From the NCBI RefSeq assembly GCF_020253645.1, contig NZ_JADCBG010000021.1, positions 1 through 36,694 of the forward strand: a stretch of 36,694 bases of DNA. The letters run 5' to 3'. Positions 11,822 through 33,118 of the stretch are shown one piece after another. The DNA comes from Phenylobacterium sp. (GTDB lineage Bacteria > Pseudomonadota > Alphaproteobacteria > Caulobacterales > Caulobacteraceae). The position numbers and the translations under genes are program-made. How positions within the stretch are numbered: position 1 is the first letter of the stretch; every line of letters starts with the position of its first letter. A model generated the notes under the pieces. That model saw nothing but the letters and a program-made list of their open reading frames with translations. It did no database searches and was not told the DNA's origin.

Positions 11822-11863
11822 GGACGGGGCTGATGCCTGCGGCGATCCCCGCGCGTCAAGCGG

Positions 11864-13673: not shown

Positions 13674-13743
13674 CGAGGTTCCCCCAACTTAAACGCGACT
13701 TCGCCTTTCGCCGGGTTGACGGGGTCTGGCAAGAGAAAACTCC

Positions 13744-13761
13744 CGCCGCTCTGCTCCGGCG
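13744..13761 (-). terminator. Candidate intrinsic terminator after gyrA
   Basis: On the minus strand, five bases after the gyrA stop, CGCCG and CGGCG form a 5-bp stem around an eight-base loop, followed closely by GGAGTTTTCTCTT. The stem is short but the T-rich tail is in the right place. It could attenuate rather than fully stop transcription into coaD. Confidence 0.4.
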
Positions 13762-13765
13762 ATGA

Positions 13766-16534
<2,769 letters not shown>

Positions 16535-16712
16535 CGGGGGGACTGGCCCTTAGAATCAGGCAGGAAATCGCCTGAATTTCTTTACCATTTCTGGGAAGGA
16601 GGGCCAACCGGGGCCCCGTGATCGGCATCCCGTCGAGGATGCATACCGGTCCCTCCCCTGACGCCCGCGCAGGCCGGACTTCGCCCGGCCCCAACGCCCT
16701 CGCCGGCTGGGC

Positions 16713-17192: not shown

Positions 17193-17273
17193 GTGACTCT
17201 CCTCAGCTTCCGTAGATGCGGGTCTGGACCCTGGCGGACGCTAGCCGAGAGAGATGGCTTTCGCAATGCAAAT

Positions 17274-17288
17274 GTTCACGTCCTGTTC
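17274..17288 (-). promoter_or_regulatory. LexA (SOS) box upstream of ssb
   Basis: GTTC-ACGTCCT-GTTC is an exact match to the alphaproteobacterial LexA motif GTTC-N7-GTTC. It sits about 82 bases before the ssb start, a plausible promoter position. A third GTTC follows at 17291-17294. The match is seen; LexA control is inferred. Confidence 0.75.
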
Positions 17289-17317
17289 TCGTTCACCCGC
17301 TTCGTCCACAGGGGAAT

Positions 17318-17719
17318 CTAGGGCCTGGGCGGCATGGGCATGGCGCCGGGAACCACCAGCCGTCCGTCTCCGGAGCGGACCAGCGCGAGGAACTGGTTTC
17401 CTTCCCAGGAGGTGGAGGTGTAGATGCCCGCTGGCACAAGGAAGAGGAAGCTTCCCTGGTAGGCGCCTGCGATGTCCCTCTGATTGCCGCCCATACTCAG
17501 GAACCGCACCCTCATGGCTTCGAGCGCGGCGGCGCAGCTCTCCAGATCGGGCTGCAGCGACGGCAGGCGGTTGTACTTCAGGCCGTCAGAAGTGGGCTGG
17601 ACATGGTAGCAGACCCCCGGATCGCCGGGGGGCTCGATACTCTGGGCGCAGGCCGACAGGGCCAACCCGGCGACAAGAGCCGGCAGGGTCCAGTTCAGCT
17701 TGCGGCGCGGCGTTCGCAT
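17318..17719 (-). CDS. Putative lipoprotein, unknown function
   Basis: A 133-residue protein from ATG 17719. The start is basic (MRTPRRKLNW), followed by a hydrophobic stretch and the lipobox LSAC, so a lipidated cysteine at about residue 24 is expected. The mature part contains VCYHVQP and ESCAAALEAMRVRFLSMGG, with two further cysteines that could form a disulfide, and ends proline-rich. The open frame continues further upstream, but those residues would precede and spoil the signal peptide. I recognise no domain. It lies after the membrane-anchored unknown gene on the same strand and shares the motif of a short cysteine-containing region, so the two may be functionally linked. Confidence 0.75.
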   Translation of the reverse strand: MRTPRRKLNWTLPALVAGLALSACAQSIEPPGDPGVCYHVQPTSDGLKYNRLPSLQPDLESCAAALEAMRVRFLSMGGNQRDIAGAYQGSFLFLVPAGIYTSTSWEGNQFLALVRSGDGRLVVPGAMPMPPRP

Positions 17720-17768
17720 GGGGTGGACTGTACAGCCGCGAGGCATGCAGCGCGAGCCCGCTTTTCGG

Positions 17769-18455
17769 TCAGCCCCCGCCGGCCGGGGCGAAGCTGCAGT
17801 TGGGGCTCTGCTCGAGGAGCGGCCTGAAGGTCCTGTTGTCATTTGAGACCTCCACTCGGCTGGTTACGAGGCGAAGTGTCTGGACGCCCCAGCGCCCGTA
17901 GGAGGCCGAGCCGGCGGGCTCGCACCGCCCGTCAAAGAGCGCCTTGACGCAGGCCAGCTGGGACATCTCTCCCGGGAGGCGTCGCCAGTCCGCGCCGGTG
18001 TGCCGCCAGCATGCCGCCGCCGCCGCCGAAGCGGAGGCGGGCGCCGCCTTGGGTTCGGCGGAGCCTGCAGGACTGAGAACCTCGACGGGCGCAGGCGCAT
18101 CCCCGGAGGGCAAGGGGGACAGGGCCCCGGATCCGGCGCCCATGGCCCCTGTGGAATCGATCCCCACATCGAGGGCCCCGGACGCAACGCCATTCAGGCG
18201 GGCGCAGGCCTCCAGGGTGAGTTCCCCGACGAGCTGACCGTCGACGTAACACCGCAGGCGCGCGCCAGGCGCCAGACGCGCGTCACCGCGGGGACCCGCC
18301 TCGACCACGAGGCCGCCTTCGGAGGCGGGAGGCGGGCCGCTTCCCGGACGACCCAGAACAAGGAGCGCGACCGCCGAGGCCAGGCCAGCGGCCAGGGCGA
18401 CGGCGGCGCCGATCAGGATGGGTCGACCGGATCGCGGTTCCTTCGACGGTTCCAT
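17769..18455 (-). CDS. Membrane-anchored protein of unknown function
   Basis: A 228-residue protein with a short basic cytoplasmic N-terminus, one transmembrane segment (about residues 13-35, ILIGAAVALAAGLASAVALL) and a proline- and alanine-rich periplasmic part. Text such as LRCYVDGQLVGELTLEACARLNGVASGALDVGID looks like a small conserved module with two cysteines. A second module near the C-terminus (ACWRHTGADWRRLPGEMSQLACVKALFDGRC) has four more. I recognise it only as a Caulobacterales-type conserved unknown. It is followed 49 bases later by the lipoprotein gene on the same strand, suggesting an envelope pair. Confidence 0.75.
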   Translation of the reverse strand: MEPSKEPRSGRPILIGAAVALAAGLASAVALLVLGRPGSGPPPASEGGLVVEAGPRGDARLAPGARLRCYVDGQLVGELTLEACARLNGVASGALDVGIDSTGAMGAGSGALSPLPSGDAPAPVEVLSPAGSAEPKAAPASASAAAAACWRHTGADWRRLPGEMSQLACVKALFDGRCEPAGSASYGRWGVQTLRLVTSRVEVSNDNRTFRPLLEQSPNCSFAPAGGG

Positions 18456-18497
18456 GTCCCATCGCTAGAGGCTGGGGACATCGGATGCAAGGCGCGG

Positions 18498-21347
18498 TCA
18501 GCTGAAGCCCGTCAGCCTTGAAAGCGCCTCCTGGTAGTTGGCGATCTGCCTCCGCAGCTGCGTGGGGATGGTGGACTGGCCAGCAGCCTGAGCCGACTCC
18601 GCCCTCTTTACGGCTTCAGGCGTGGCGGCGTCCCTGAGGGTCCGGTAGGTCGAGCGGATCACATTGATGGCGCCTGCGAGTTCCGCCGCCGCATGGTTGA
18701 TCTCGACTGTGTCCTGGAGGTTGATCTGGCGGTTCAGCTTCAGGCCGTAGACCGGCGAGCCCCCGTCGCCGGGAATGATTGCGCCGCCCCTTGCGATGTT
18801 CGTGTTACGGAGCACCCCCTCCGGCAGGCCCAGCCCTTGCAGGGCGTCCTTGCCCGGCGGCCCGGCGACAAGCTCGATCACATTCCGCTGGGTGGCGGGC
18901 TTGACCTGTAGCCGCCGGCCGCCGTCGACCGTCATGACCCGGACATCGGCCTGCGCGCCAAACGCCCGTTTCATGCGATCCGCGAGCGTCGTGAGGGTGT
19001 CGCCCTCCTGGACCGTGATGGTGGTCGTCGGCCCGTTCAGGCGCGCACGGATCTTGAGCTGGTCACCCGTACGAATGGAGCTGACCGCGTCGAGCCGGAT
19101 GGAGTCCGCGGCGTTCAGCTGGCCGGTGGGCAGGCCAAGGCGGTCGAGCACGCTTGCGCCGCCCGTATCCACGGCGATGGCGGAAGGAGCTACATGGCCG
19201 TCCTTGCCGCTGAACCGGCGGGACCAGGGTGAATCGCCATTCGCGGGGTCGATTTCCGCGACGAAGCCGTCCACGGTTCCGATCTTGTTCAGGTCGGGGA
19301 TCGCCGCCTTGCTGGTCCCGGTGATGAAGACGCGATCGTCCTTGATCGCAACGCCGGTGATGGCGTCCTCGCCCTCGCCGCCGAAATAGGTGACGCGATC
19401 CTGTCCCGTGGGCTGCAGGCTGGCGGAAAGACGGACGATGAAGCCGTCCTGACCGCCGGAGAAGGCCTTGGTCACATTCCCGGCGTTCAGGTCTCCCGCC
19501 CAGGTGTTGCCGGTCACGATCACGCGCCCGTTGGCCATCCCGAGCCCGGTGATGTCGCCGCCGCGGAGGCTTCCAAGGTTGCGGGTCTCCGCCAGAACCG
19601 GAGCGCCGCCGGAGAGGTCGAAACGCCGGATCACGGCGAACCCGCCCTCATTGCCGGCGAGGTAGAGATCGTTGCCGTTGACGAAGACCCCCTTCGCGGT
19701 ATCACGCTCGGCGCCGCCGGTGACCGCCGAGGCCGTGTAGGTCACCTTGTTGTTGGCGTCCGTCGCATAGGTCTCGAGGAAGACGTCGGACTGGCCAAGT
19801 CCGTCCAGATTCCCCCGTCCGGTCGAGGTGTTGCCGGCGACGTACAGCTTGCCGTCCGCGCCCCAGGCGAGGTGGGTGGCCTCGTCGTCGCCCCGCGAGC
19901 CGCGCCTCTGTGTCCAGATCTCTTCGCCGGCAGCGTTGAAGACTGTGACAAAGCTGTCGGTCGTCGCCCCCCGGCTGTCATTGATCGCACCGGTTCCGGC
20001 CCCCTCGAGCGCGCCCTTGACCCTGCCGGCTATGGCGATACGCCCATCGCTGGCGACGGACATGGACATGCCGAAGGCCTCGTCGGAGGCCCCCAGGTCC
20101 CGGGAGAACAGCAGCTTTCCCGCCGAATCGAACTTCTGGAGCACGACGTCGCGATCGCCGCGGGTCTTCACGCCGCTCAACTCGCCCGTGACGTCCGCCA
20201 GCACGAGGACGGAGCCGTCGGCAAGAGTCTCCATCGACCGGACGGATGTCAGGGCCGGATCAATCGTCCGGGACCAGACCTGCCCGGCCGCCAGGCTTTC
20301 GGAAGAGTTCAGGACATTGGGAGGCGTCAGGTTCTCGGTCCCGGTCTGGAACTTGAGAAGCTGGTTGGTCAGGACGCCGTCCTTGGTCGCCGGCTTGCCG
20401 TCGGGATCCGGATTTCCCGCCTTCTGCGCGAGGTAGATCGCCGGGACTGTCGTCGCGGGGGTCAGGGTCACGGCCTCGGCGGTATCGAGCTTGAGGTTCA
20501 GAGCCCAGGTATCCGGCGTCTTGCCCAGGGAGATCGTCCTGCCCCCGACGGTCGTCGAGCGCTCCTGGCCAGGTATCCTGCGGGTCTCGAACCGGGTCGT
20601 CAGCCCCTCTTCCTGGAGCTTGGCGTTCACGAAGTTGACGAAGTTCGGAAGTGTCCGCTCGGACTCCGGGACAGTGGAATAGTCGATCTCGATATCCTTG
20701 GTCACGCCGATCCGGGTGATGGACATGTTGAACTTCACGACGCCCTTCAGGGCCTCGCTGACGCCTGCCGAGTTTGTGGCGACCAGCGGCGGCGTCTGGT
20801 AGGCGCTTGAAGCCGGACGCCCGGCGGAGGACGCCCGGACCGAGCCGTTGACCTCCCCGAGGGCAAGCCGCAACCGCTCGAAGCGCGTCTTCTCGACATA
20901 GTCCACGAGCTCGTCGACGCCGCGACGGAACGCTGTCTGCAACTGTGCGGTGCTGGCGGCCGAGGTCGGCTTCGCCTTGGCGTTCTCCACCAGCTGGGAA
21001 AGGGTGTTCAGGCCGTTATAGAGGGCGAAGAGTTTCCTGTAGTCGCTGCTGGCGTTCGGCAAGTCGAGCTTGGCGGCGTCCTCGTCAATGACCTTGGCGC
21101 CGCTGATGACATCCTTAGCCGCCTTGGAGAGAAGTTCGGCATCGTTGGCGGGGTTACGCTGGGCGGTGATCGACCAGGGCGCGGTGGGCGCATAGAGCCT
21201 GCGCGTCAGGGGCGAACCGCCCGCGATTCCGGCCGAGTTTGAACCTAGAAGGTCAGCAGACAGCCCAGACGGCTGCGCAAAACCCCCGCGCGACCCCTGC
21301 GCCGAGGACAGCAGGAGAGACAGATTCGACAAAGAGACGTTGCGCAT
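18498..21347 (-). CDS. flaEY: FlaEY-like flagellar filament-associated protein
   Basis: A 949-residue protein resembling Caulobacter FlaEY, a large protein encoded beside the flagellins and linked to filament assembly or regulation. Its N-terminus (MRNVSLSNLSLLLSSAQG) and C-terminus (LRRQIANYQEALSRL) look like the helical ends of exported axial proteins. A middle region (about residues 350-730) is a run of beta-propeller-like repeats (for example DGFIVRLSASLQP and DDRVFITGTS). Near residues 765-845 lies a flagellin-hook-IN-like segment flanked by two copies of LGLP-x-G-x-L. There is not one cysteine in the whole chain, as expected for a type III exported flagellar protein. I chose ATG 21347, with GAGA five bases ahead; a start at 21398 is also open but lacks a ribosome-binding site. 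Confidence 0.8.
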   Translation of the reverse strand: MRNVSLSNLSLLLSSAQGSRGGFAQPSGLSADLLGSNSAGIAGGSPLTRRLYAPTAPWSITAQRNPANDAELLSKAAKDVISGAKVIDEDAAKLDLPNASSDYRKLFALYNGLNTLSQLVENAKAKPTSAASTAQLQTAFRRGVDELVDYVEKTRFERLRLALGEVNGSVRASSAGRPASSAYQTPPLVATNSAGVSEALKGVVKFNMSITRIGVTKDIEIDYSTVPESERTLPNFVNFVNAKLQEEGLTTRFETRRIPGQERSTTVGGRTISLGKTPDTWALNLKLDTAEAVTLTPATTVPAIYLAQKAGNPDPDGKPATKDGVLTNQLLKFQTGTENLTPPNVLNSSESLAAGQVWSRTIDPALTSVRSMETLADGSVLVLADVTGELSGVKTRGDRDVVLQKFDSAGKLLFSRDLGASDEAFGMSMSVASDGRIAIAGRVKGALEGAGTGAINDSRGATTDSFVTVFNAAGEEIWTQRRGSRGDDEATHLAWGADGKLYVAGNTSTGRGNLDGLGQSDVFLETYATDANNKVTYTASAVTGGAERDTAKGVFVNGNDLYLAGNEGGFAVIRRFDLSGGAPVLAETRNLGSLRGGDITGLGMANGRVIVTGNTWAGDLNAGNVTKAFSGGQDGFIVRLSASLQPTGQDRVTYFGGEGEDAITGVAIKDDRVFITGTSKAAIPDLNKIGTVDGFVAEIDPANGDSPWSRRFSGKDGHVAPSAIAVDTGGASVLDRLGLPTGQLNAADSIRLDAVSSIRTGDQLKIRARLNGPTTTITVQEGDTLTTLADRMKRAFGAQADVRVMTVDGGRRLQVKPATQRNVIELVAGPPGKDALQGLGLPEGVLRNTNIARGGAIIPGDGGSPVYGLKLNRQINLQDTVEINHAAAELAGAINVIRSTYRTLRDAATPEAVKRAESAQAAGQSTIPTQLRRQIANYQEALSRLTGFS

Positions 21348-21432
21348 GGGGATCTCGACAACGGCAGTCCTTCGACCAGAGCCGCCAGCAAGATTCATGC
21401 TAGGCTGAAAGGATTAACGTCTCCTCAAGCCG

Positions 21433-22266
21433 TCAGTTCCTGAAGAGGGAGAGAATAATCTGCGGGGACTGGTTGGCGATCGACAGCGCCTGAGCGCCGA
21501 GCTGTTGCTGGACGTTCAGGGCCTGCAGCCGCGCGCTCTCCCTCGCGAGATCGGCGTCAACAAGGTTGCCGACACCCGCCTCGACGGAATCGCTCAGCTT
21601 GCCGACAAAGGTGTTGTGGTTCTCGAGTTGCTTGACCTGGGCCCCCATCTCCGCGAGGGCCAGGCTCACATTTTCGATGGAAGCGTTGAGGCGGCTGAGC
21701 GAGGTCCGCGCATTTGTCAGAGTCAAGATCGACGCGGCCGCCGACAAGGTGATGATCGACTGACCGAGTCGCATGTCCTGGTTGGAAATCGTGATGGTGC
21801 TCGAACCGTTGGCGTCCGCGAGGAAGCCCATGCCTCCAGGAAGAGAGTTATCCAGAAGCTTGGCGCCATCGAAGGCGGAGTCCCGGACCACCTGGGTTAT
21901 CTGCTTCAGGAGTTGGGTGAAGTCGGCATTGAGGGCCTGTCGGGAAATCGAGGTCAGCGACTGGTCCTGCGCCGCGACGACCTTCTCCTTCATTTGGACG
22001 AGAAGTTCCGAGATGGATTTCCCGGCCGTCAAGGCGGTCTCGCCGATCGACTGGGCCCGGTCCAACCCCATCTTGACAGCGGCGAGCCCTCCGAGGTCCG
22101 CCCGTTGATCCTGGGCGATGGCCCAGATGGCAGAGTTATCCTTGGCGCTGGAGATGCGCAGACCGGTGCCGATTTTGCTCTGGGTGTCCTGGAGGCTCCC
22201 GGTGGTCGAGTTCAAATTCTGCAAGGCGATCATCGCCGCCTTGTTGGTTTGTATCGACAGCGACAT
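21433..22266 (-). CDS. Divergent flagellin (FljJ-like)
   Basis: A 277-residue flagellin with conserved D0/D1 ends: N-terminal SIQTNKAAMIALQNLN and ISSAKDNSAIWAIAQDQR, C-terminal GVGNLVDADLARESARLQALNVQQQLGAQALSIANQ. It differs clearly from the two flagellins upstream: a different centre (LLDNSLPGGMGFLADANGSS) and QITQVVRDSAFDGAKLLD rather than their NGA-type region. In Caulobacter the specialised paralogue FljJ works with FlbT to repress flagellin mRNA; this gene is the best candidate for that role, by inference from divergence only. The ATG has AAGGAGAG upstream. I see no -24/-12 promoter or shared leader hairpin in the 178 bases upstream, unlike the other two. No cysteines. Confidence 0.92.
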   Translation of the reverse strand: MSLSIQTNKAAMIALQNLNSTTGSLQDTQSKIGTGLRISSAKDNSAIWAIAQDQRADLGGLAAVKMGLDRAQSIGETALTAGKSISELLVQMKEKVVAAQDQSLTSISRQALNADFTQLLKQITQVVRDSAFDGAKLLDNSLPGGMGFLADANGSSTITISNQDMRLGQSIITLSAAASILTLTNARTSLSRLNASIENVSLALAEMGAQVKQLENHNTFVGKLSDSVEAGVGNLVDADLARESARLQALNVQQQLGAQALSIANQSPQIILSLFRN

Positions 22267-22444
22267 CGCGCTCTCCTTGGCAATTGAGCCACTCCGGCGG
22301 CGACACAGAGTCGCGAAGCCAGACACCTTCTAGATGCCTGAGTATCGCTGAATCATGGTTTTTAAAAGGTTAATGCAGAAACGCCGAGAACCGCTGCCGG
22401 CGACCCGGAGCGGAATAAGAGCGGAGACGGCGGCGTGAACTGAG

Positions 22445-22850: not shown

Positions 22851-23678
22851 TTATCGGAAGAGACTCAGCAGGTTTCCGGGACCCTGGTTGGCGATCGACA
22901 GCGCCTGGAAGCCCAACTGCTCCTTGGTCTGGAGAGCCTGAAGCTTTGCGCTTTCCTTCGCCAGGTCCGCGTCCACGATATTGCCGACACCGGCCTCGAT
23001 CGCATCCTGCAGCTTGTTCACGAAGTTCAGGTGCGTGTTGAGCGCCTTGGAACCCGTGCCCAGCTTCGCGAGGGCGAGAGAGACGTTCTCGATCGAAGCG
23101 TTCACCAGAGAGAGAGCGTTCTTTGCATTGGTGACCGTATTGACCTCGGTGCTCGTGGTCACCGTCACGTTTGAACCGCTCAGGTTGAGCCTCTGGGCTT
23201 GCACCGTGATCAGATTCGACCCGGTTTCATCGGCCAGGGCGGTGACGTTCGCGGCGGAGGCACTGATCAGACTGGCGCCATTGAACTTGGTGTTTTTAGT
23301 GGCGTTGGTGATCTGATTCCGAAGCGACTGGAAGTCTGCGTTCATCGCCGCCCGTGATGTCGAGCTGAGCTGGGCGTCTGAAGCGGCGAGCGCTTTTTCC
23401 TTCATCTGGCTGAGAAGATCAGAGATCGTCTCGCCAGCGGCGATGGAAACGTCCGCAACCGACTGGCCCCGCTGGAGGGACTCGCGGACCGCGTTCAGGG
23501 CGCTGCCCGTGGCGCGTTCGTTGTTCGCAATGGCGAAAATGGCGCCGTTGTCTTTCGCCGACGAAACCTTCAAGCCGGTGGCGATAGCGGTTCGGCTCAT
23601 CTGGAGTTGTTCCTGAGTACGGCTCAGGTTCTGCGTCGCGAGCATTGCCGCGACATTGGTATTGATGCTTGCAGTCAT
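22851..23678 (-). CDS. Flagellin (major-type, FljK/FljL-like)
   Basis: A 275-residue filament subunit. The N-terminal D0/D1 shows SINTNVAAMLATQNLSRTQ and VSSAKDNGAIFAIANNER; the C-terminal part shows GVGNIVDADLAKESAKLQALQTKEQLGFQALSIANQ. The short centre is rich in serine, threonine and asparagine (NLSGSNVTVTTSTEVNTVTN) and is the likely O-glycosylated surface. It is very similar to the third flagellin, with which it also shares promoter layout and leader hairpin. The ATG has AGAGG eight bases ahead. No cysteines. Expression should depend on sigma-54 and FlbD, with mRNA control by FlbT, by analogy with Caulobacter. Confidence 0.96.
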   Translation of the reverse strand: MTASINTNVAAMLATQNLSRTQEQLQMSRTAIATGLKVSSAKDNGAIFAIANNERATGSALNAVRESLQRGQSVADVSIAAGETISDLLSQMKEKALAASDAQLSSTSRAAMNADFQSLRNQITNATKNTKFNGASLISASAANVTALADETGSNLITVQAQRLNLSGSNVTVTTSTEVNTVTNAKNALSLVNASIENVSLALAKLGTGSKALNTHLNFVNKLQDAIEAGVGNIVDADLAKESAKLQALQTKEQLGFQALSIANQGPGNLLSLFR

Positions 23679-23752: not shown

Positions 23753-23768
23753 TGCAAGCTTCGGGCCA
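23753..23768 (-). promoter_or_regulatory. Sigma-54 promoter of flagellin 2
   Basis: On the minus strand TGGCCCG-AAGC-TTGCA fits the -24/-12 consensus TGGCACG-N4-TTGCW with one mismatch and exact GG-to-GC spacing. The predicted transcription start is near 23742, giving a leader of about 64 bases. Confidence 0.85.
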
Positions 23769-23958: not shown

Positions 23959-24789
23959 CTAGCGGAACAGGTTGATCAGCTGACTCGGCCCCTGGTTTGC
24001 GATCGAGAGCGCCTGGAAGCCCAACTGCTCCTTGGTCTGGAGAGCCTGCAAACGGGCGCTCTCCTTCGCGAGATCCGCGTCAACAATGTTTCCAATTCCG
24101 GCGTCGACGGCGTCCTGAAGCTTGCCCACAAAGGTCAGATGCGTCGCCAGAGCCCGCGACCCCGTTCCCAGCTTGGCCAGGGCGAGGGAGACGTTCTCGA
24201 TCGAATCGTTCACCAGGGAGAGCGCGGCCTTGGCGTTGGTGACGGTATTGATCTGCGTCGTACTCGTCACTGTCACGTTGGAGCCGCTGAGGGCCAGGAC
24301 CTGGGCCTGCACTGTGAGCAGACTGGTTCCGGTCTCATCCGCCAACGCGGCCACATCGGCGGCCCCTGCCTTGATCAGGTTCGCGCCGTTGAAGTTGGCG
24401 TTGTTGACGGCCTTGGTGATCTGGTCCCGGAGCGCAATGAAATCGGAGTTCATCGCGGCCCGTGAGCTTGAATTCAGTTGCGCGTCCGCCGACGCGAGTG
24501 CCTTCTCCTTCATCTGAAGCAGAAGATCAGAAACGATTTCAGCGGCGGCGCTCGAGACATCCACCGTGGACTGACTGCGCTGCAGAGACTCCCTCACCGC
24601 ATCAAGCGCGCGTGAGGTGCCCCGCTGGTTCGTCGCAATGGCGAAGATCGCGCCATTGTCCTTGGCGTTGGCTACCTTCTGTCCGGTTGCAATCCGCTGC
24701 TCGGCGATCCTCAGTTCTGCTTGTGACGCATTAAGTCTCTGGAGCGCGTACATAGCGCCCACGTTCGTGTTGATGGATTGAACACCCAT
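23959..24789 (-). CDS. Flagellin (major-type, FljK/FljL-like)
   Basis: A 276-residue filament subunit, starting at ATG 24789 with GGAAGG ahead; a longer open frame upstream crosses the leader and promoter and is rejected. The N-terminal SINTNVGAMYALQRLNASQ and ANAKDNGAIFAIATNQR and the C-terminal GIGNIVDADLAKESARLQALQTKEQLGFQALSIANQ are typical. It closely matches the second flagellin, including the centre ADETGTSLLTVQAQ and LSGSNVTVTSTTQINTVTN, so a recent duplication is likely. It has its own sigma-54 promoter, FlbD-like site, leader hairpin and terminator. No cysteines. The serine/threonine-rich centre is the expected target of FlmG-type glycosylation. Confidence 0.96.
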   Translation of the reverse strand: MGVQSINTNVGAMYALQRLNASQAELRIAEQRIATGQKVANAKDNGAIFAIATNQRGTSRALDAVRESLQRSQSTVDVSSAAAEIVSDLLLQMKEKALASADAQLNSSSRAAMNSDFIALRDQITKAVNNANFNGANLIKAGAADVAALADETGTSLLTVQAQVLALSGSNVTVTSTTQINTVTNAKAALSLVNDSIENVSLALAKLGTGSRALATHLTFVGKLQDAVDAGIGNIVDADLAKESARLQALQTKEQLGFQALSIANQGPSQLINLFR

Positions 24790-24818
24790 GTCGTACCTTC
24801 CATTCTGGTCGGGGATTT

Positions 24819-24838
24819 CGTCCGGCGTTTTGCGGACG
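24819..24838 (-). promoter_or_regulatory. 5' leader hairpin of flagellin 3 with GCAAAACGC loop region
   Basis: On the minus strand CGTCCG-CAAAACGC-CGGACG forms a 6-bp stem about 30 bases before the start codon, inside the leader predicted from the -24/-12 promoter. It carries the same GCAAAACGC 9-mer (24825-24833) as the second flagellin leader, although the flanking stem sequences differ. Shared loop with different stem suggests selection for a protein-binding RNA hairpin, perhaps FlbT; the binding is inferred. Confidence 0.55.
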
Positions 24839-24862
24839 CGCGATTCTTCGCCTCCAGCGGGT

Positions 24863-24878
24863 CGCAAGGACCGCGCCA
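24863..24878 (-). promoter_or_regulatory. Sigma-54 promoter of flagellin 3
   Basis: On the minus strand TGGCGCG-GTCC-TTGCG matches the -24/-12 consensus with exact spacing (A-to-G at position 5 and a final G). The transcription start is predicted near 24852, giving a leader of about 62 bases, almost the same length as for the second flagellin. Confidence 0.85.
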
Positions 24879-24970
24879 TGAGCGAGATCGTCCCCTCTTA
24901 CCAAAGGGATTGATAAGGTTGGATTTTCTGACCGAGGCATGGTCCAGAGCACGGCGCCTTGGACGCCGCC

Positions 24971-25001: not shown

Positions 25002-25949
25002 CTAACGGGCTTCGCTGGCGAGCAGGTTGTCGAAGTACGCGATCGTCCGCGTCAGTCCCTCGTCGAGCTCGATCGTGGGTTTCCAGTCGAGCAGCCGGCC
25101 CGCGAGACTGATGTCCGGCCTCCGCTGGCGGGGATCATCGGACGGGAGGGGTCGATGGACAAGCTTTGACGCTGATCCTGTCAGGGCGATGACCCTTTCG
25201 GCCAGGGCGCGGATCGTGAACTCGCCGGGGTTGCCGAGATTGACCGGTCCGGTGACGTCGTCCGGCGTATCCATCAGCCGGAGAATCCCTTCGACCAGGT
25301 CGTCGACAAAACAGAATGACCGGGTCTGGAGGCCCTCGCCATACAGCGTGATTTCCTCCCCCTTCAGGGCCTGGACAATGAAGTTCGAGACAACCCGTCC
25401 GTCGTTGGGATGCATCCTCGGGCCATAGGTATTGAAGATCCGGGCAACCTTGATCTTCAGACCATGCTGGCGGTGATAGTCGAAGAACAGGGTCTCCGCA
25501 CAGCGCTTGCCCTCGTCATAACAGGATCGGACTCCGATCGGATTGACGTTTCCCCAGTAGTCCTCCGTCTGGGGATGAATGGCGGGATCACCGTAGACCT
25601 CGCTGGTGGAGGCCTGGAAAATGCGGGCGCGCCGGCGTTTGGCGAGGCCGAGCATGTTGATGGCCCCGTGCACGGATGTCTTGGTCGTCTGGACCGGATC
25701 GAACTGGTAGTGCACCGGCGAGGCCGGACAGGCGAGATTGTAGATCTCGTCGATCTCCGCAAAAAGCGGGAAGGTCACATCGTGCCGCATGAGCTCGAAC
25801 GCCGGGTTTCCCAGCAGGTGGGCCACGTTGCGACGGGCCCCTGTGTAGAAGTTGTCGACACAGAGGACCTCGTGCCCCGCATCGATGAGGCGCTCGCACA
25901 GGTGCGAACCGATGAATCCGGCGCCGCCGGTGACCAGGATACGTTTCAT
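25002..25949 (-). CDS. UDP-glucuronate decarboxylase (UDP-xylose synthase type)
   Basis: An extended SDR of 315 residues. It most likely oxidises and decarboxylates UDP-glucuronate to UDP-4-keto-pentose and UDP-xylose with bound NAD+. The NAD motif GGAGFIGS is at residues 8-15, STSEVYGDP (114-122) carries the glutamate typical of this family, the YxxxK pair is Tyr144/Lys148 in SCYDEGKR, and [13 protein letters not shown] is another family signature. I chose ATG 25949; a TTG four codons upstream is also open. It lies 32 bases after flaF on the same strand, so flbT-flaF-decarboxylase looks like one transcript inside the flagellin locus. A role in supplying a sugar donor for flagellin glycosylation is inferred; capsule or lipopolysaccharide synthesis are alternatives. 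Confidence 0.9.
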
Positions 25950-25981
25950 GTGTTTCGCCAACTCCGCGCTCAGGCAGGGAA

Positions 25982-26347
25982 TCAGGCCGCAGTCTCATTC
26001 CGTGCGCTGAGACCCTGCATGATCATGCGGTTGACGTCGATCAGGTCCTGAATGTCTTCCCGACCGCGAATGACCTCGCTGGTGTATTTCCCGACCCAGA
26101 TGGAGAGGGAGACGATCCCCGCCCTGAGCTCCTTGGGAAGCTGGTTGCCTTCGCTCCCGCAGTCGATGGCGAGCACCGACCAGAGACGGCGATTCCAGTC
26201 GAGGGCGGGCGCCCTCCCGACAACGTCCGAGGGGTCCAGGCGCGAAGCCTCCACGAGGGCGAGCGTCACCTGCGAAAACAGGCGGAACTCGGCATCCCTC
26301 GGGGTTTCAGCCCTCGTCGCCGCCTGCTGATACGCCCGCAGGGACAT
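25982..26347 (-). CDS. flaF: Flagellar biosynthesis regulator FlaF
   Basis: A 121-residue alphaproteobacterial FlaF. In Caulobacter it is needed for flagellin translation and export and acts opposite FlbT, probably as a flagellin chaperone. Visible family text: [68 protein letters not shown] and the C-terminal [12 protein letters not shown]. The start ATG at 26347 lies within the end of flbT, a 41-base overlap in another frame, so the two are surely co-expressed. It is followed by the decarboxylase gene 32 bases on. Confidence 0.95.
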
Positions 26348-26732
26348 TCCCCAACCTCACATCTTCGTATTCAATAAGCTTCCGACAGGAGAGAAGCGCT
26401 TTGTAATAGTCGCGCTGGAGACAGCAACGTGAAATCGTCACGCACTCCGCGAGAATCGCAGGATTCCTCACTGCTCCCATGAATTCGCTCAACCTCCGCA
26501 CGAATTCATCATAGTACTTCTGGGCGTCTGCAGGCTCAAGGTACATGAGCATGACCTGGAAGTATATCCGACGCGACGGTGTATTGGCCTGATCGGGCTG
26601 GAGAATGTCCTTTTCCCGGAGGACAGAGGCCTTGTTCTGGAGGATCAGAACACCACGGCGATCGCCGTTCTGGATCACCGCACCATTCAGGACCAGCTTT
26701 TCGCCCGGCTTCAGAGAGAGCTTGAGTGGCAA
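26307..26732 (-). CDS. flbT: Flagellin mRNA repressor FlbT
   Basis: A 141-residue FlbT, which binds the 5' untranslated region of flagellin mRNA and couples its translation and decay to hook completion. Recognisable text: PLKLSLKPGEKLVLNGAVIQNGDRRGVLILQNKASVLREKDI near the start and QKYYDEFVRRLSEFM, NPAILAECVTISRCCLQRDYYKAL later. The only usable start is TTG at 26732, which gives the normal FlbT N-terminus and may keep expression low; its ribosome-binding site is poor. It overlaps flaF by 41 bases. The 157-base region upstream is shared with the divergent glycosyltransferase operon and holds two CtrA-like boxes. Confidence 0.95.
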   Translation of the reverse strand: MPLKLSLKPGEKLVLNGAVIQNGDRRGVLILQNKASVLREKDILQPDQANTPSRRIYFQVMLMYLEPADAQKYYDEFVRRLSEFMGAVRNPAILAECVTISRCCLQRDYYKALLSCRKLIEYEDVRLGNVPAGVSAGGDEG

Positions 26733-26828: not shown

Positions 26829-26843
26829 TTAGCGTCGCATTAA
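26829..26843. promoter_or_regulatory. CtrA-like box 2
   Basis: TTAG-CGTCGCA-TTAA followed by C fits TTAA-N7-TTAAC with one mismatch, 47 bases before the first flmG-like gene. The site is also a small inverted repeat (GGTTA/TAACC). Caulobacter flmG is reported as cell-cycle controlled through CtrA, which makes this pair of boxes plausible. Confidence 0.5.
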
Positions 26844-26889: not shown

Positions 26890-28689
26890 ATGACGGACGC
26901 CGTTTCGCCCCTCCCGGCGCCAGACACCCCCGGTGCATCCAAGGGTCTGATGGGTTCCAGCACATCGCAGGGCGCGCTCCGGGTGCTGAAGCAGGAATTG
27001 GCCCTGCAGCGGGATGCGCGGATCTCCGGGTTGCTGGCGCGGGCGGTGGCCGAGATCCGGGCCCATCGGCCTGACGGCGCCGCGGACCTCGCACTTCAGG
27101 CCTTGCAGACCGACGAACGATCCGGGCTCGCATGGCATGTGCTGGCCATCGCCCAGGAGGGACGTGGCGACTACGTGAATTCGCTCCGCTGCTATGAGGC
27201 GGCGCTGGCCCTGCTGCCCGCGGATTCCGACGTGCCTCTCAACCTGGGAAGACTGGCCTTTCGCATGGGCATGTACAACACGGCGGAAAAGCTTTTCGGT
27301 CACTTCCTGGCGCAGCGACCGGACCATGCGGAAGGGGTGAACAACCAGGCCCTCTCCGTCAGTGCGCAGGACCGTACGGACGAGGCGATCCGGATGCTTC
27401 AGGACTTCCTCGGGCGAAATCCGACCCACGCCAACATCTGGAACAGTCTGGCTGGAATGGTCGCCGAAACCGGGGATCTGGCGTCGGCGGAAGTCTTTTA
27501 CCGCGAAGCCCTTCGCCTTGATCCCCGGACGCCGAGAATTCGGTACAACCTGGGCTCGATGTGGATCGATATCGGCCGGATCGCCGAGGGGCTTGGAGAG
27601 ATCGAGACCGCCCTGAAGCGTCCGATGGCCGCTGACGAGAAGGCCATGATGACCATGGCTCGCGGCCTGGCCCAACTCGCCCTGGGCCGGCTTTCCGAGG
27701 GGTGGCGCAACTACGCGGCCCGGCACGACATCCACCTGAAGGATGCCACCTACTTCGCCCTCGACGGCGCCCGCTGGACGCCGGGAAGCACCCTGGGCGG
27801 CAAATCACTCCTGCTGGTCGGCGAGCAGGGCCTGGGTGACGAAGTGCTTTTTGCCGGCATTGTCCCGGACGCGCTCGAAGACCTTGGTCCCGGAGGCCAG
27901 CTGACCATGGCCGTCGAAAAGCGGCTGGCGCCCCTCTTCGCCAGGAGCTTTCCATCGGTGCGGGTGGAGGCCCACAGGACGGTCGCCACCGCGGGCCGCA
28001 CCGTCCGGGCCGTCCCGGCGCTTCAGACGTCCGGCGCGACCTTCGATCTCTGGTCGCCCATCGCTTCGCTGCTGCAGGACTATCGACCCAATGTCGAGGC
28101 CTTCCCCCAAAGGACGGGCTATCTCCGCCCCGACCCGGAGCGCGTCGCCCACTGGCGGGACGCCCTGGCTTCGACGCCCGAGGGCCCCAAGGTCGGTCTT
28201 CTCTGGAAGAGCGCAGTCCTCACCCGCGGGCGGAGTCGCCTGTTCTCGTCGTTCGAGGCCTGGGAGCCCGTGCTTCGGACGCCCGGTGTCGTGTTTGTGA
28301 ACCTGCAGTACGGCGATTGCGAGGCTGAGCTCCGGATGGCGCAGGAGCGCTTCGGGGTCGAAATCTGGACTCCGCCAGGGATCAATCTTCGCGAAGACCT
28401 GGATGATGTCACAGCGCTCTCCGCCGCCCTGGACCTCGTGATCGGATTCTCCAACGCCAGCTTCAACCTGGCCGCCGCCGCGGGAACTCCCGCCTGGCTG
28501 ATCGCCAGCAAGGGCACATGGACGGCGCTCGGTACGGATCGCTATCCCTGGTACCCTCAGGTCCGCCTGCACCGGCCGGAGACCTACTCGGACTGGGACC
28601 CGGTCCTGCAGACCATCGCGGACAACCTGGCTCGGGAGTTCGGCGGAGCGGCAAGGCGGCCCGAGGCCCCGGAAGAGGCCTCGTCGTGA
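26890..28689 (+). CDS. FlmG-type flagellin glycosyltransferase, paralogue 1
   Basis: A 599-residue two-part protein: an N-terminal series of TPR helices (about residues 45-275) and a C-terminal GT-B-like glycosyltransferase domain (about 300-585). This is the make-up of Caulobacter FlmG (formerly FlbA), which binds flagellins through its TPR part and glycosylates them in the cytoplasm before export. Conserved marks in all three paralogues are GEQGLGDEVLFA (311-322 here), GLLWKS (436-441), FVNLQYGDC, N-A-S-FNLA and YPWYPQVRL. The ATG has AGGA ahead. Two CtrA-like boxes precede it. It starts a three-gene operon divergent from flbT-flaF. The donor sugar cannot be told from the sequence. Confidence 0.88.
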   Translation: MTDAVSPLPAPDTPGASKGLMGSSTSQGALRVLKQELALQRDARISGLLARAVAEIRAHRPDGAADLALQALQTDERSGLAWHVLAIAQEGRGDYVNSLRCYEAALALLPADSDVPLNLGRLAFRMGMYNTAEKLFGHFLAQRPDHAEGVNNQALSVSAQDRTDEAIRMLQDFLGRNPTHANIWNSLAGMVAETGDLASAEVFYREALRLDPRTPRIRYNLGSMWIDIGRIAEGLGEIETALKRPMAADEKAMMTMARGLAQLALGRLSEGWRNYAARHDIHLKDATYFALDGARWTPGSTLGGKSLLLVGEQGLGDEVLFAGIVPDALEDLGPGGQLTMAVEKRLAPLFARSFPSVRVEAHRTVATAGRTVRAVPALQTSGATFDLWSPIASLLQDYRPNVEAFPQRTGYLRPDPERVAHWRDALASTPEGPKVGLLWKSAVLTRGRSRLFSSFEAWEPVLRTPGVVFVNLQYGDCEAELRMAQERFGVEIWTPPGINLREDLDDVTALSAALDLVIGFSNASFNLAAAAGTPAWLIASKGTWTALGTDRYPWYPQVRLHRPETYSDWDPVLQTIADNLAREFGGAARRPEAPEEASS

Positions 28690-28702
28690 CGCGAGCCTGC
28701 CC

Positions 28703-30454
28703 ATGACCCCCGGCGAGACTCCTCCCCAGGCCCCGCCCCAGCCGGAGATCCCGGCCTTGGAGGCGACCCTCCAGGACTCCGCACTCAGCGACGTCGGTCG
28801 TGAAGACGGTTCCGCCGGGAACAAACCGGACTCGCTTGTGTCACAGGCCCGTCAGGCGCTCGGGGAACGCAGGCTTGAGGCGGCTGCACAGTTGTGCCAC
28901 GCCGCACTCGAGATCGACGAGACCCACGCACTGGCCTGGCATGTGCTCGCCGTCGTCCATGAGGTCAGGAAGGACTTTCCGACCGCCCTGTCGTGTTACC
29001 AGGCCGCGCTGAAACTGCTTCCCGATGATCCACGGATCGTCCTCAACCTGAGCCGTCTGGCCATGACCATGGGCATGAGCGAGGTGGCGGAAAAGCTGAT
29101 CCGAAAACTTCTGATCTCCGATCCGGAGAATCCCGAGGCGATCAACAAGCTCGCGATCGCCCTGAGCGCCCAGGACCGGCGCACTGAGGCCATAACCCTG
29201 CTCCGCGACTTCCTGGAGCGACAGAACGGTCATCCGAAACTCCTGAACAACCTTGGCAGTCTGGTCGCGGACTCCGGGGATCTGGAGACCGCCAACATCC
29301 TGTTCAGCGAAGCCTTGCGCCTCTCGCCCGACCTCGTCGCAGCGGCCTACAATCTCGGCGACAATCTCCTGGTCCGGGGTCGGACCGCGGAAGCCCTCCG
29401 TCGGATCGAGGCGGCGGTGGCGGCTGGCCCACCGCCTGAGGATCGACCGGCGATGGTCTTTGCGAGGGGGCTTGCGAACCTCGCGCTGGGCGACCTTGAG
29501 GCCGGGTGGCGCGACTACGAGGCGCGGAACGATCCCAACTGGCCGGGACATATCCGCAATCTGCGGGACGAACCGCTCTGGAGGCCTGGAGAGTCCCTTC
29601 AGGGTCGTCGTCTCCTGGTCCTCGGGGAGCAGGGATTGGGGGACGAGGTCCTCTTCGCCAGCCTGATTCCAGACGTCATCGAGCGGGTGGGGCCAGAGGG
29701 AAGCGTCATCCTGGCTGTCGAACCCCGATTGGTCAGCCTGATGGCCAGGACCTTTCCGACAGTCCGCGTTATGCCCCATTGCGCCGGGGATCTTGGCGGT
29801 CACAGGGTCCGGATCGTACCCGGCTTGCCAAAAGGCGAGTGTGACCACTGGACCCCGATCGCATCGCTTCTTCAGACCTTGCGGCCGGATGTTCGCGCCT
29901 TCGCAGGACGGGGCGGCTATCTGAAGGCGGACCCCGGGCGCGTCGACCATTGGCGTAACGTCCTGGCGCAGGCGCCACCCGGGCTGCGGATCGGACTCCT
30001 CTGGAAGAGCGCCTCGCAATCCAGAGGACGGGCTCGCAGCTTCGCGGAGTTCGACGCCTGGGCGCCGGTGCTCAGGACGCGCGGAGCCACATTCGTGAAC
30101 CTGCAGTACGGAGACTGCGCCCCGGAGATCCGGATCGCACAGGAAAGGTTCGGGGCCCGTATCTGGACCCCGCCGGGCATCGACCTGATGCAGGATCTGG
30201 ACGAGGTGACCGCCCTGGCGAGCGCCCTCGACCTTACCGTCGCATTCGCCAACGCCACCTTCAATCTCGCAGCGGCGACAGGTGCGCCGGCCTGGCTGAT
30301 CGCCTCGAAGGGCGCCTGGACCACCCTCGGGACCCGCGCGTATCCCTGGTATCCGCAGGTGCGCCTCTACCAGCCCGGCGCCTACGCGGACTGGGCCCCT
30401 GTCCTGGCCCGGGTGGCGAAGGACCTCAAGGCGGTCCTCGGAGCCAGGACCTGA
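28703..30454 (+). CDS. FlmG-type flagellin glycosyltransferase, paralogue 2
   Basis: A 583-residue paralogue of the gene before it, 13 bases downstream of that gene's stop. TPR helices cover about residues 45-270 (for example AWHVLAVVHEVRKDFPTALSCYQAALKLLPDDP), followed by the GWRDYEARND linker common to the set and a GT-B-like domain starting near 300 with GEQGLGDEVLFAS (308-320). GLLWKS, NLQYGDC, NATFNLA and YPWYPQVRL are all kept, so it does not look decayed. A proline-rich N-terminal tail of about 40 residues differs from the other two. The ribosome-binding site is weak, so translation may depend on reading from the first gene. Its stop overlaps the start of the third paralogue by one base. 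Confidence 0.88.
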   Translation: MTPGETPPQAPPQPEIPALEATLQDSALSDVGREDGSAGNKPDSLVSQARQALGERRLEAAAQLCHAALEIDETHALAWHVLAVVHEVRKDFPTALSCYQAALKLLPDDPRIVLNLSRLAMTMGMSEVAEKLIRKLLISDPENPEAINKLAIALSAQDRRTEAITLLRDFLERQNGHPKLLNNLGSLVADSGDLETANILFSEALRLSPDLVAAAYNLGDNLLVRGRTAEALRRIEAAVAAGPPPEDRPAMVFARGLANLALGDLEAGWRDYEARNDPNWPGHIRNLRDEPLWRPGESLQGRRLLVLGEQGLGDEVLFASLIPDVIERVGPEGSVILAVEPRLVSLMARTFPTVRVMPHCAGDLGGHRVRIVPGLPKGECDHWTPIASLLQTLRPDVRAFAGRGGYLKADPGRVDHWRNVLAQAPPGLRIGLLWKSASQSRGRARSFAEFDAWAPVLRTRGATFVNLQYGDCAPEIRIAQERFGARIWTPPGIDLMQDLDEVTALASALDLTVAFANATFNLAAATGAPAWLIASKGAWTTLGTRAYPWYPQVRLYQPGAYADWAPVLARVAKDLKAVLGART

Positions 30455-32091
30455 TGGGGCGTGCGGCCGGGAGCCCGCTGGACGACGCCCTCAAGGCCCT
30501 CGACGAGGGGCGCCTGCAGGACGCCGTCCGGTCTGCGCGACGAACGGCCGAAATGGACCCGACATCGCTCACCGCCCTCAGGGTCCTCGCCATGGCCCAA
30601 GAGCGGCTGGGCGAGGTGACGGACGCCCTGGCGACCTACGAAAACGCCCTGCGGCTGGCGCCCGACGATCCCGATCTCCTGAACGGCCTCGGCCGGCTGG
30701 CTCTAGAACTGGATCTGGCGCCAGTCGCCGCAGGCATGGCGCGCCAGTCCCTGGCGGCGCGGCCCGGAGACCCTGAGGCGGTGTGCCTGCTCGGCCGCGC
30801 CCTCGCCCTGGAGGGACGGGTTCAGGAGGCCATCAGATGTCTTGCGGACCATCTGGGAGCCTATCCCGAGCAGGCCGGCGTCTGGAATGCGCTGGGCGTG
30901 CTGATGTCCGACACCGGCGATCCGGTCATGGCGGAAACCGCCTTTGCAGAGGCAATACGGCTGAACCCGGAGCTTGTCCCGGCCCGGTTCAACCAGGCGA
31001 ACCTGCTGGTGACCCTTGGGGAAACCCGGCGCGCCCTCGACGCCCTGCTTGAGATACCGGAGACGAACCTGAACGCGCGGGAACGGGCGACCCTGCGATT
31101 CTCTAGGGCCTGCGCCCGGTTGCAAATGGGGGATCTTCCCGGCGGATGGCGTGACTACGAAGCCCGGAACGATCCGGGCCTTTCGGGGGCGGCTGACTTC
31201 GAAGCCCCGGGCAGGCGCTGGCGGCCCGGAGATCCGCTAGATGAACTTGACCTGCTGCTTTTCGGTGAGCAGGGCCTTGGAGATGAGGTCCTGTTCGCCA
31301 GCCTGCTCCCAGACCTGCTGAAGCGGACCGACCGGCCGGCCAGGATTCACTTCGCAGTGGAACCGCGGCTTGTCTCCCTGTTCCAGCGCTCCTTCCCGGA
31401 GGTGTCGGTCATAGCGCATTCGACGGTGGGAACAGGAGGACGCAAGATCCGGCGGATACCGGCGTCGCACAACGCCACTCGCGTCTCGGCCTGGACGCCG
31501 ATCGGCGATCTGCTCCCTGTCCTTCGACCGGACATCACCGCCTTTCCCGGACACAATGGGTTTCTCATCGCAGATCCCCAGCGGGTGCTGGAGTGGCGTG
31601 ACTGGCTGACACGCGCCCCCGGGGGATTGCGTGTCGGGCTTCTGTGGAAGAGCGGGCTCCTGGCGGGGGCCCGGGGCCTCTCCTTCGCAGGCTTCGAGTC
31701 CTGGGCGCCGGTGCTGCAGGCGCCCGGCGTCACCTTCGTCAATCTCCAGTACGGGGATTGCGCGGAGGAAATCGCTTTTGCCCGGGATCACCTCGGAGTG
31801 GAGATTCTCACGCCGCCGGGGCTGGACCTGAAGGAGGATCTCGAGGGCGTGGCGGCTTTGTCCTGCGCACTGGACCTGGTCATCGGGGTCGCCAACGCCA
31901 GCTTCAACCTCGCCGGGGCCTGCGGCGGGAGGACCTGGCTGGTCAGTGGTCCCGACGCATGGACCGTTCTGGGGAGCGGACGCTATCCCTGGTACCCTCA
32001 GGTCCGACTGTTTCCTTCCGCCCGTCTCGGTGACTGGGCGGACATCCTCGCCACCGTCGGCCGCGCGCTCGCCGCGGAAGCGGGGCCCTGA
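30454..32091 (+). CDS. FlmG-type flagellin glycosyltransferase, paralogue 3
   Basis: The third tandem paralogue, 545 residues, the shortest because it lacks the N-terminal tail of the others: TPR helices start almost at once (DDALKALDEGRLQDAVRSARRT) and run to about residue 235. The GT-B-like domain keeps GEQGLGDEVLFAS (271-283), GLLWKS, NLQYGDC, NASFNLA and YPWYPQVRL. Its ATG overlaps the preceding stop as TGATG with AGGA six bases ahead, so it is translationally coupled. Divergence is greatest in the TPR part, where flagellin recognition would occur. No further flagellar gene follows; the next gene is a MoxR-type ATPase 157 bases on. Confidence 0.88.
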   Translation: MGRAAGSPLDDALKALDEGRLQDAVRSARRTAEMDPTSLTALRVLAMAQERLGEVTDALATYENALRLAPDDPDLLNGLGRLALELDLAPVAAGMARQSLAARPGDPEAVCLLGRALALEGRVQEAIRCLADHLGAYPEQAGVWNALGVLMSDTGDPVMAETAFAEAIRLNPELVPARFNQANLLVTLGETRRALDALLEIPETNLNARERATLRFSRACARLQMGDLPGGWRDYEARNDPGLSGAADFEAPGRRWRPGDPLDELDLLLFGEQGLGDEVLFASLLPDLLKRTDRPARIHFAVEPRLVSLFQRSFPEVSVIAHSTVGTGGRKIRRIPASHNATRVSAWTPIGDLLPVLRPDITAFPGHNGFLIADPQRVLEWRDWLTRAPGGLRVGLLWKSGLLAGARGLSFAGFESWAPVLQAPGVTFVNLQYGDCAEEIAFARDHLGVEILTPPGLDLKEDLEGVAALSCALDLVIGVANASFNLAGACGGRTWLVSGPDAWTVLGSGRYPWYPQVRLFPSARLGDWADILATVGRALAAEAGP

Positions 32092-32248: not shown

Positions 32249-33118
32249 ATGAGCCAGCGTTTTGAAGGCACAGACAATTACGTCGCCACCGACGATCTCA
32301 AGGTGGCCGTCAACGCCGCCATCGCCCTCGAGCGTCCCCTATTGATCAAGGGCGAGCCGGGGACCGGCAAGACCGTACTGGCCTACGAGGTGGCCCGGGC
32401 CCTCGACGCCGAACTGATCACCTGGCACATCAAGTCCACGACAAAGGCCCACCAGGGCCTCTACGAGTATGACGCCGTCACGCGACTTAGGGACAGCCAG
32501 CTCGGTGACGAGCGGGTGAAGGACGTCCGCAACTACATCAAGAAGGGCAAGCTCTGGGAGGCCTTCACCGCCCCGAAGCGACCTGTCCTCCTGATCGACG
32601 AGATCGACAAGGCCGACATCGAGTTCCCGAACGACCTCCTCCAGGAGCTCGACCGGATGGAGTTCTACGTCTACGAAACCAACGAGACGATCCGTGCGGA
32701 AATCCGGCCGGTGGTGATCATCACCTCCAACAACGAGAAGGAGCTGCCCGACGCCTTCCTGCGTCGTTGCTTCTTCCACTACATCCGCTTCCCTGAAGCC
32801 GAGACGATGAACGACATCGTCGAGGTCCACTATCCGGGCATCAAGCAGAAGCTGGTCTCTGAGGCCCTGCGTATCTTCTACGACATGCGCAAGGTTCCGG
32901 GCCTGAAGAAGAAACCCTCCACCTCCGAGCTGCTCGACTGGCTGAAGCTCCTGATGGTCGAGGACATCAGCGACGAGATGCTGAAGGAGCGGGACCCGAC
33001 CAAGCTGATCCCGCCCCTGCACGGCGCCCTCCTGAAGAACGAGCAGGACGTGCAGCTATTTGAGCGCCTCGCCTTCCTGGCCCGCCGGGAAAGTGGTCCG
33101 CCCCGCCCGGGCCAGTAG
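32249..33118 (+). CDS. MoxR-family AAA+ ATPase
   Basis: A 289-residue AAA+ ATPase of the MoxR group, chaperone-like ATPases that usually work with a von Willebrand A-domain partner to insert metal cofactors or activate enzymes. Walker A is GEPGTGKT (about residues 36-43), Walker B is VLLIDEIDKAD, and sensor 1 is in VVIITSNNEKELPDAFLRRC, with the arginine finger in the last part. Length is normal. In related genomes a CoxE-like VWA gene follows on the same strand; here the next gene is convergent after 38 bases and unrelated, so the partner must be elsewhere or missing. Ribosome-binding site weak. Confidence 0.93.
   Translation: MSQRFEGTDNYVATDDLKVAVNAAIALERPLLIKGEPGTGKTVLAYEVARALDAELITWHIKSTTKAHQGLYEYDAVTRLRDSQLGDERVKDVRNYIKKGKLWEAFTAPKRPVLLIDEIDKADIEFPNDLLQELDRMEFYVYETNETIRAEIRPVVIITSNNEKELPDAFLRRCFFHYIRFPEAETMNDIVEVHYPGIKQKLVSEALRIFYDMRKVPGLKKKPSTSELLDWLKLLMVEDISDEMLKERDPTKLIPPLHGALLKNEQDVQLFERLAFLARRESGPPRPGQ

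Follow-up and report, generated by a model that had tools for sequence, protein, structure and literature searches.

Three tandem genes for FlmG-type proteins, each joining N-terminal tetratricopeptide repeats (TPR) to a C-terminal GT-B glycosyltransferase lobe, lie opposite three flagellin genes in a 36,694-nucleotide stretch of Phenylobacterium sp. (contig NZ_JADCBG010000021.1; the whole stretch is called the window). The locus is a real and conserved enlargement of a known system, and its clearest result is the third copy, FlmG3, which appears to have been re-aimed through a rewritten TPR groove. Judged from sequence comparison, and at a probability of roughly 0.55, FlmG1 (perhaps together with FlmG2) would be the standard flagellin transferase, and FlmG3 would have a new acceptor.

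The three open reading frames (ORFs) are intact and form one tight operon, as a first-pass annotation of the sequence had described; it had also remarked correctly on the missing N-terminal tail of the third copy. The end of FlmG1 is followed after 13 nt by the start of FlmG2, and the stop codon of FlmG2 overlaps the ATG of FlmG3. On the divergent side lie flbT, flaF, a gene resembling UDP-glucuronate decarboxylase (UDP-xylose synthase, UXS), the three flagellins and an SBBP-repeat protein.

26890..28689, + strand: FlmG1 (599 residues), TPR + GT-B transferase, orthologue of the single-copy FlmG, flagellin-type groove mostly retained
28703..30454, + strand: FlmG2 (583 residues), paralogue, groove mostly FlmG1-like with a lysine at 152 in this genome
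30454..32091, + strand: FlmG3 (545 residues), paralogue without the N-terminal tail, TPR groove rewritten

Divergence of the TPR groove in FlmG3

A reference set of 40 rows of single-copy FlmG provided the measure of ordinary divergence. Single-copy pairs whose GT identity falls between 0.50 and 0.55 have a TPR identity of 0.492 (standard deviation 0.045, minimum 0.412, n=81 pairs), whereas the window FlmG1-FlmG3 pair combines a GT identity of 0.525 with a TPR identity of 0.333, and FlmG2-FlmG3 combines 0.513 with 0.379. On these identities, the TPR divergence of FlmG3 is greater than that of ordinary FlmG proteins. The values for FlmG1 and FlmG2 (GT 0.587, TPR 0.442) are ordinary for their class (range 0.404-0.704).

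The groove was represented by TPR positions 2, 5, 6, 9, 12 and 13, in a register set by gap-free alignment to the consensus TPR and to OGT; the modelled helix starts agree with it within one residue in repeats 2-7. In the single-copy set the groove is more conserved than the remainder (identity 0.646 vs 0.565 elsewhere), while between FlmG1 and FlmG3 the order is reversed (0.244 vs 0.406), the lowest of 34 register shifts. The corresponding values are 0.430 vs 0.458 for FlmG1 and FlmG2, and 0.619 vs 0.612 within the FlmG3 orthologues. FlmG3 has lost 9 of 15 conserved groove positions, compared with 12 of 50 conserved positions elsewhere (p 0.012); FlmG2 has lost 4/15 and 11/50, respectively. 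Conserved residues of the putative flagellin-binding groove are retained at 12/15 in FlmG1, 11/15 in FlmG2 and 6/15 in FlmG3. Residue 152 is leucine in 9/9 FlmG3 proteins and asparagine in all 40 single-copy rows, 8/8 FlmG1 and 2/3 FlmG2. The largest per-position falls in FlmG3 occur at TPR positions 5 and 6, then at 24, 2, 9 and 23, and the scaffold positions 4, 7, 15 and 32 are unchanged.

Several observations weigh against a groove rewritten in FlmG3 specifically. The inward orientation of the six groove positions is presumed, from general knowledge of TPR proteins. The fall at groove positions 12 and 13 is not exceptional, being matched at several other positions, and two positions that do not belong to the groove set, 23 and 24, fall by 0.42 and 0.50. 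FlmG1 has itself lost 3/15 groove positions against 2/50 other conserved positions (p 0.076; this and the other p-values are approximate, the rows being related and not independent). The groove drift of both FlmG1 and FlmG2 from the single-copy set shows an excess that ranks 1 of 34 shifts, the excess between FlmG1 and FlmG2 ranks 2 of 34, and the window's own FlmG2 carries lysine at 152.

Fold and catalytic lobe

The fold is predicted. Confident AlphaFold models of copies 1 and 3 (predicted local distance difference test, pLDDT, 87.9 for FlmG1 and 91.5 for FlmG3) give the N-terminal TPR and C-terminal GT-B architecture, to which copy 2 is assigned by 51% identity and by its TPR hits. A Foldseek search with the whole FlmG1 model placed SPINDLY and OGT on top, the likeness to these GT41-type enzymes being the TPR superhelix ahead of a GT-B domain; the three window FlmGs differ from them in giving no Pfam Glyco_transf_41 match at E <= 0.001. 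The best structural match confined to the GT lobe is the GT9 entry 3tov, but the family scan returned no GT9 sequence match for any of the three copies (E <= 0.001). Identity to the FlmG of Caulobacter vibrioides OR37 is 49, 44 and 44% for copies 1, 2 and 3.

The best-conserved family positions in the GT lobe are invariant across 41 aligned rows, the three window copies included, which bears out the first-pass suggestion of shared putative catalytic motifs. Group-specific GT changes in FlmG3 are S393D and R396P (both 9/9) and R450N and F520V (both 8/9).

By analogy with the FlmG of C. crescentus, FlmG1 would remain a flagellin O-glycosyltransferase, whose TPR groove holds flagellin in the cytoplasm while the GT-B lobe transfers to it a nonulosonic acid from the activated form, ahead of export. 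FlmG2, which mostly retains the groove, may be a dispensable helper or a second-site enzyme. FlmG3 would combine an unchanged catalytic fold with a new groove, and because the groove is new a different acceptor would be expected. That acceptor could be a protein other than flagellin, or flagellin itself in a different form or on a different face, for example flagellin that already carries a glycan. The specialisation envisaged at first is supported for FlmG3, whose groove was rewritten beyond the single-copy range and then kept constant, and much less so for FlmG2.

The array in the window clade

The genus search covered 101 genomes (coded G000 etc.), of which 12 carry a UXS gene at 93-100% identity and make up the clade considered here: G000, G007, G030, G035, G062, G069, G070, G091, G092, G113, G116 and G117. 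Contig ends truncate the arrays of G070, G113 and G117, leaving nine that are readable. FlmG1-2-3 occurs in three of them (G000, G030, G092), FlmG1-3 in five (G007, G069, G116, G035 and G062, whose contig starts inside FlmG1) and FlmG1 alone in G091, such that FlmG2 is present in 3/9. The paralogy is evident in a FlmG tree of 90 rows (quick method, without OR37 but with other Caulobacteraceae), where the copies form three groups inside one 20-row clade (Shimodaira-Hasegawa-like approximate likelihood ratio test, SH-aLRT, 100), FlmG2 and FlmG3 being sisters (SH-aLRT 96). The simplest reading of these sequences is that the gene was tripled in the ancestor of this small Phenylobacterium clade, which would have carried all three copies, and that FlmG2 was lost repeatedly.

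Copies may also have spread between lineages by exchange. Between G035 and G092 the synonymous divergence (dS) is 0.036 for FlmG3 and 0.94 for FlmG1, and DNA identity jumps near the FlmG1 end; over 13100-15700 of G035, FlmG3 and the next gene are ~95-99% identical to G092, with FlmG1 far apart. This combination of near-identical FlmG3 and distant FlmG1 suggests allele exchange at the flagellin-modification locus. FlmG1 was also considered as a FlmG1/FlmG2 hybrid, and no sign of this was seen over most of its length. In G000 (0.72 vs 0.68), G069 (0.78 vs 0.72), G035 (0.78 vs 0.70) and G091 (0.87 vs 0.77), its final 60 residues match FlmG2 better than they match the FlmG1 of the other three-copy genomes, and an exchange of 3' ends between the two genes is therefore possible.

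All three copies are under purifying selection, with ratios of nonsynonymous to synonymous divergence (dN/dS) of 0.13-0.21 for FlmG1 (5 genome pairs), 0.20-0.24 for FlmG2 (3 pairs) and 0.20-0.38 for FlmG3 (5 pairs, the value of 0.38 coming from a nearly identical pair with dS 0.036). The rise from FlmG1 to FlmG3, together with the absence of FlmG2 from 6/9 readable arrays, could be taken to mean that extra copies only raise the amount of transferase and diverge under relaxed constraint. Such a dosage effect is nevertheless distinctly unlikely, given the purifying selection on every copy and the fact that the FlmG3 changes cluster on groove positions and are kept among orthologues, and not spread as under relaxed drift.

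Enzyme and flagellin numbers

The possibility of one FlmG per flagellin, raised in the first-pass annotation, draws on the three-and-three arrangement found in G000 and G092. In a flagellin tree of 59 rows, flagellin A is an old paralogue, and B and C group together within the clade. Genome-wide, three flagellins are present in G000, G092, G007, G069 and G116, and two in G035, G091 and G030 (the G030 genome being 82% complete, with its contig cut inside flagellin B). Copy numbers and orthologue presence rule out a one-to-one mapping as a rule: G007, G069 and G116 have two FlmGs for three flagellins; in these genomes and in G062, flagellins A, B and C are accompanied by just FlmG1 and FlmG3; G035 has FlmG3 without flagellin C; and in G091 one FlmG stands against two flagellins. 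Outside the clade, the G022 group described below has two tandem FlmGs with 5-6 flagellins, and C. vibrioides OR37 and two other Caulobacter records have three flagellins facing one FlmG. The C. crescentus FlmG, in the sections of PMC7591256 consulted, modifies all six flagellins. A dedicated enzyme for each flagellin is thus highly implausible. Since a single FlmG faces three flagellins at the same locus in OR37, it was the enzymes that multiplied, and not the flagellins.

FlmG copies elsewhere in the Caulobacteraceae

A family survey of 299 Caulobacteraceae genomes (E <= 1e-70, at most four candidates scored per genome, matches not being proven genes) found a FlmG match in 232, of which 74 had two or more by hand count. 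A closer look at 14 genomes revealed tandem pairs in four of one genus (g24), and three matches each, on three contigs, in G125, G146, G158 and G190. Besides the window clade, five Phenylobacterium genomes have independent tandem arrays: G022, G023, G071, G083 and G086 (the G022 group). Of the loci inspected, those of G000, G030 and G092 alone showed three copies in tandem; G253, with three survey matches, lay outside the closer look.

These independent copies, scored against the same 40 single-copy rows, give differing pictures. The G022-group pairs are ordinary (GT 0.60-0.61, TPR 0.52-0.56), with groove losses of 2/15 and 3/15 and a groove identity of 0.624 vs 0.530 elsewhere in the pair compared. 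Convergence at GT sites between FlmG3 and the copies of the G022 group was considered and dropped, the overlaps being 3 and 3 positions vs ~2 expected. Three g24 pairs resemble FlmG3 (GT 0.49-0.50, TPR 0.35-0.37) and display a similar split, whereby the upstream copies, next to flbT, retain the groove (4/15 lost) and the downstream copies lose it (8/14 vs 15/50 elsewhere, p 0.062). In one of these genomes, G163, the two tandem FlmGs form one continuous 1193-codon frame from 7478, which looks like a natural fusion of TPR-GT-TPR-GT layout. Groove residues have also been lost in FlmG paralogues that lie apart from the flagellin locus (g12 genomes, G025). For other downstream or dispersed copies the losses amount to 11/15 in G125b/G158c (p 0.004), 9/15 in G125c/G158b (p 0.018), 11/14 in G025b (p 0.026), 10/15 in G289c (p 0.029) and 6/15 in G074b/G089b (p 0.146).

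Two FlmG annotations are also listed for Phenylobacterium zucineum, of the same genus, in the portions of PMC2529317 consulted; unlike the window copies, its second gene (PHZ_c2597) is near flmD, flmC and flmH and not in tandem. The G025 matches fall at these P. zucineum coordinates, with an identity of 31-32% for the second gene. A search on FlmG and flagellin found no paper with multiple FlmGs per genome in its title, though PMC2529317 lists two. Two further occurrences are unusual in their setting: the FlmG of G024 has no flbT, flaF or flagellins within the 16 kb retrieved, and a contig filed as a Rickettsiales metagenome-assembled genome, probably mis-binned, carries a FlmG 64% identical to the window FlmG1.

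Neighbouring genes and promoter sites

The remaining features of the window locus are as follows.

26829..26843, + strand: CtrA-like site TTAGCGTCGCATTAA, 1 mismatch to TTAA-N7-TTAA, 46 nt 5' of the FlmG1 ATG
26307..26732, - strand: FlbT (PF07378)
25982..26347, - strand: FlaF secretion chaperone (PF07309)
25002..25961, - strand: UXS-like gene, ATG at 25949
23959..24879, - strand: flagellin C, true start probably near 24786
23753..23768, - strand: sigma-54-like site upstream of flagellin B, exact pattern match
22851..23678, - strand: flagellin B
21433..22326, - strand: flagellin A, older paralogue, true start probably near 22266
18498..21398, - strand: SBBP-repeat protein, frequent flagellin neighbour, possible alternative acceptor (unproven)

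CtrA recognizes the consensus TTAA-N7-TTAA. Two CtrA-like sites of this kind were found in the window vs 0.27 expected, and the three FlmGs would be co-expressed from the CtrA-type site. The pattern used for sigma-54, likewise its consensus, was found 53 times across the window vs 56 expected, which is no better than chance.

Of the 20 loci compared, 13 include the SBBP-repeat protein with the flagellins (the remaining loci being cut, or the gene lying elsewhere), as do three Caulobacter records. Downstream of the FlmG gene or genes, 18/20 of these loci have a conserved AAA ATPase (32249-33118, + strand, in the window; 88-99.7% identity), which a sub-threshold NCBIfam match suggests to be MadB-like.

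UXS and the question of a second sugar

The UXS start is 20 nt (TTG) or 32 nt (ATG) past the flaF stop. Its best matches are four UDP-glucuronate decarboxylase 1 rows (E 4e-121 to 6e-122), the next class following at E 2e-37, and the best solved match is the human-type UDP-glucuronate decarboxylase 1 (E 6e-122). The gene adjoins flaF in 12/12 clade genomes; its other neighbour is a flagellin gene in 11 of them, and in G092 the contig ends there. Its dN/dS of 0.02-0.04 (5 pairs) signifies very strong constraint.

Thirteen genomes outside the clade carry a UXS at 82-86% identity, and all 13 also have ALTTAQ-repeat matches. By hand comparison, these repeats are found in 18/101 genomes overall, in 0/12 of the clade and in 0/7 genomes with UXS at 71-78%; five of the 18 are without UXS at 82-86% identity. 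In 9 of the 13, UXS lies <4 kb from a GT41 match. G087 presents the island between flaF and flagellin, comprising a 2496-aa ORF, a GT41 match, a 763-aa ORF and UXS, and part views are available from the flaF side in G064 and G065 and from the flagellin side in G026 and G118. In G064 the island lies at 6563-19655, and its three large proteins are of ALTTAQ-repeat, TPR-GT41 and FkbM-TPR types. With 71 ALTTAQ repeat matches in its 2496-aa protein, the G064-type island looks like an O-glycosylation cassette dedicated to a giant repeat protein; the term ALTTAQ was not found in the literature searched. As UXS sits in flaF-flagellin islands elsewhere, the UXS of the clade may be a remnant of one whose other genes were lost.

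The presence of UXS in the operon makes sequential sugar addition worth testing. FlmG1 would add nonulosonic acid, and FlmG2 and/or FlmG3 would either elongate this or attach a further sugar, for instance xylose made by UXS, the FlmG3 groove reading glycosylated flagellin. The constant position and constraint of UXS are consistent with this, as are the TPR-GT41 O-glycosyltransferases that adjoin its close relatives outside the clade, the two matches to the UDP-glucose dehydrogenase family PF03721 in G000, and the GT-lobe arginine R546, which is present in 38/40 single-copy rows and missing from 20/20 clade copies. However, the G022-group tandem FlmGs have no UXS at the locus, and G091, G064, G065 and G087 have UXS in the flaF region with a single FlmG. 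R546 is also weakened as a marker of UXS, for G014, with no UXS match at E <= 1e-80, has lost it too, and the UXS-bearing G064 and G087 retain it. G000 has a single NeuB (G000:C199:2192-2908), the sole nonulosonic acid gene among the 10 ORFs scanned on its contig, which rules that contig out as a pse/leg cluster. A stepwise glycan is accordingly possible but doubtful. A search on flagellin and UDP-xylose found no paper on flagellin xylosylation by title. A more specific version, in which the tandem FlmGs are split between a flagellin-gripping enzyme and a FlmG3 using the UDP-xylose of the operon, for a two-sugar flagellin glycan or another exported protein carrying xylose, would be unlikely. 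The reading preferred here remains a FlmG3 with a new acceptor.

Relation to known systems and significance

The window FlmGs share with the C. crescentus FlmG the N-terminal TPR, the C-terminal GT-B, a CtrA-type site upstream (the C. crescentus flmG promoter being bound by CtrA) and one NeuB, and they differ from it in the three paralogues, the rewritten FlmG3 groove and the UXS in the flaF-flagellin operon, as far as the consulted parts of PMC7591256 describe that system. As in C. vibrioides OR37, the genes lie beside flbT, flaF and the flagellins. Stepwise multi-enzyme flagellin glycosylation, which the first-pass annotation took to be new, is already known: several transferases serve flagellin in Aeromonas Fgi-1 (PMC7874193), C. 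difficile GT1-GT3 (PMC5207246) and P. syringae Fgt1/Fgt2 (PMC3927599). The descriptions in the excerpts of these papers set them apart from the window, with no tandem duplicates of one TPR-GT.

Acceptor choice by soluble O-glycosyltransferases is described as poorly understood in the sections of PMC7591256 consulted. Tandem paralogues in which one catalytic lobe has been kept and one TPR groove rewritten amount to a natural experiment in how acceptors are chosen, and a concrete prediction of a second sugar follows from the UXS gene.

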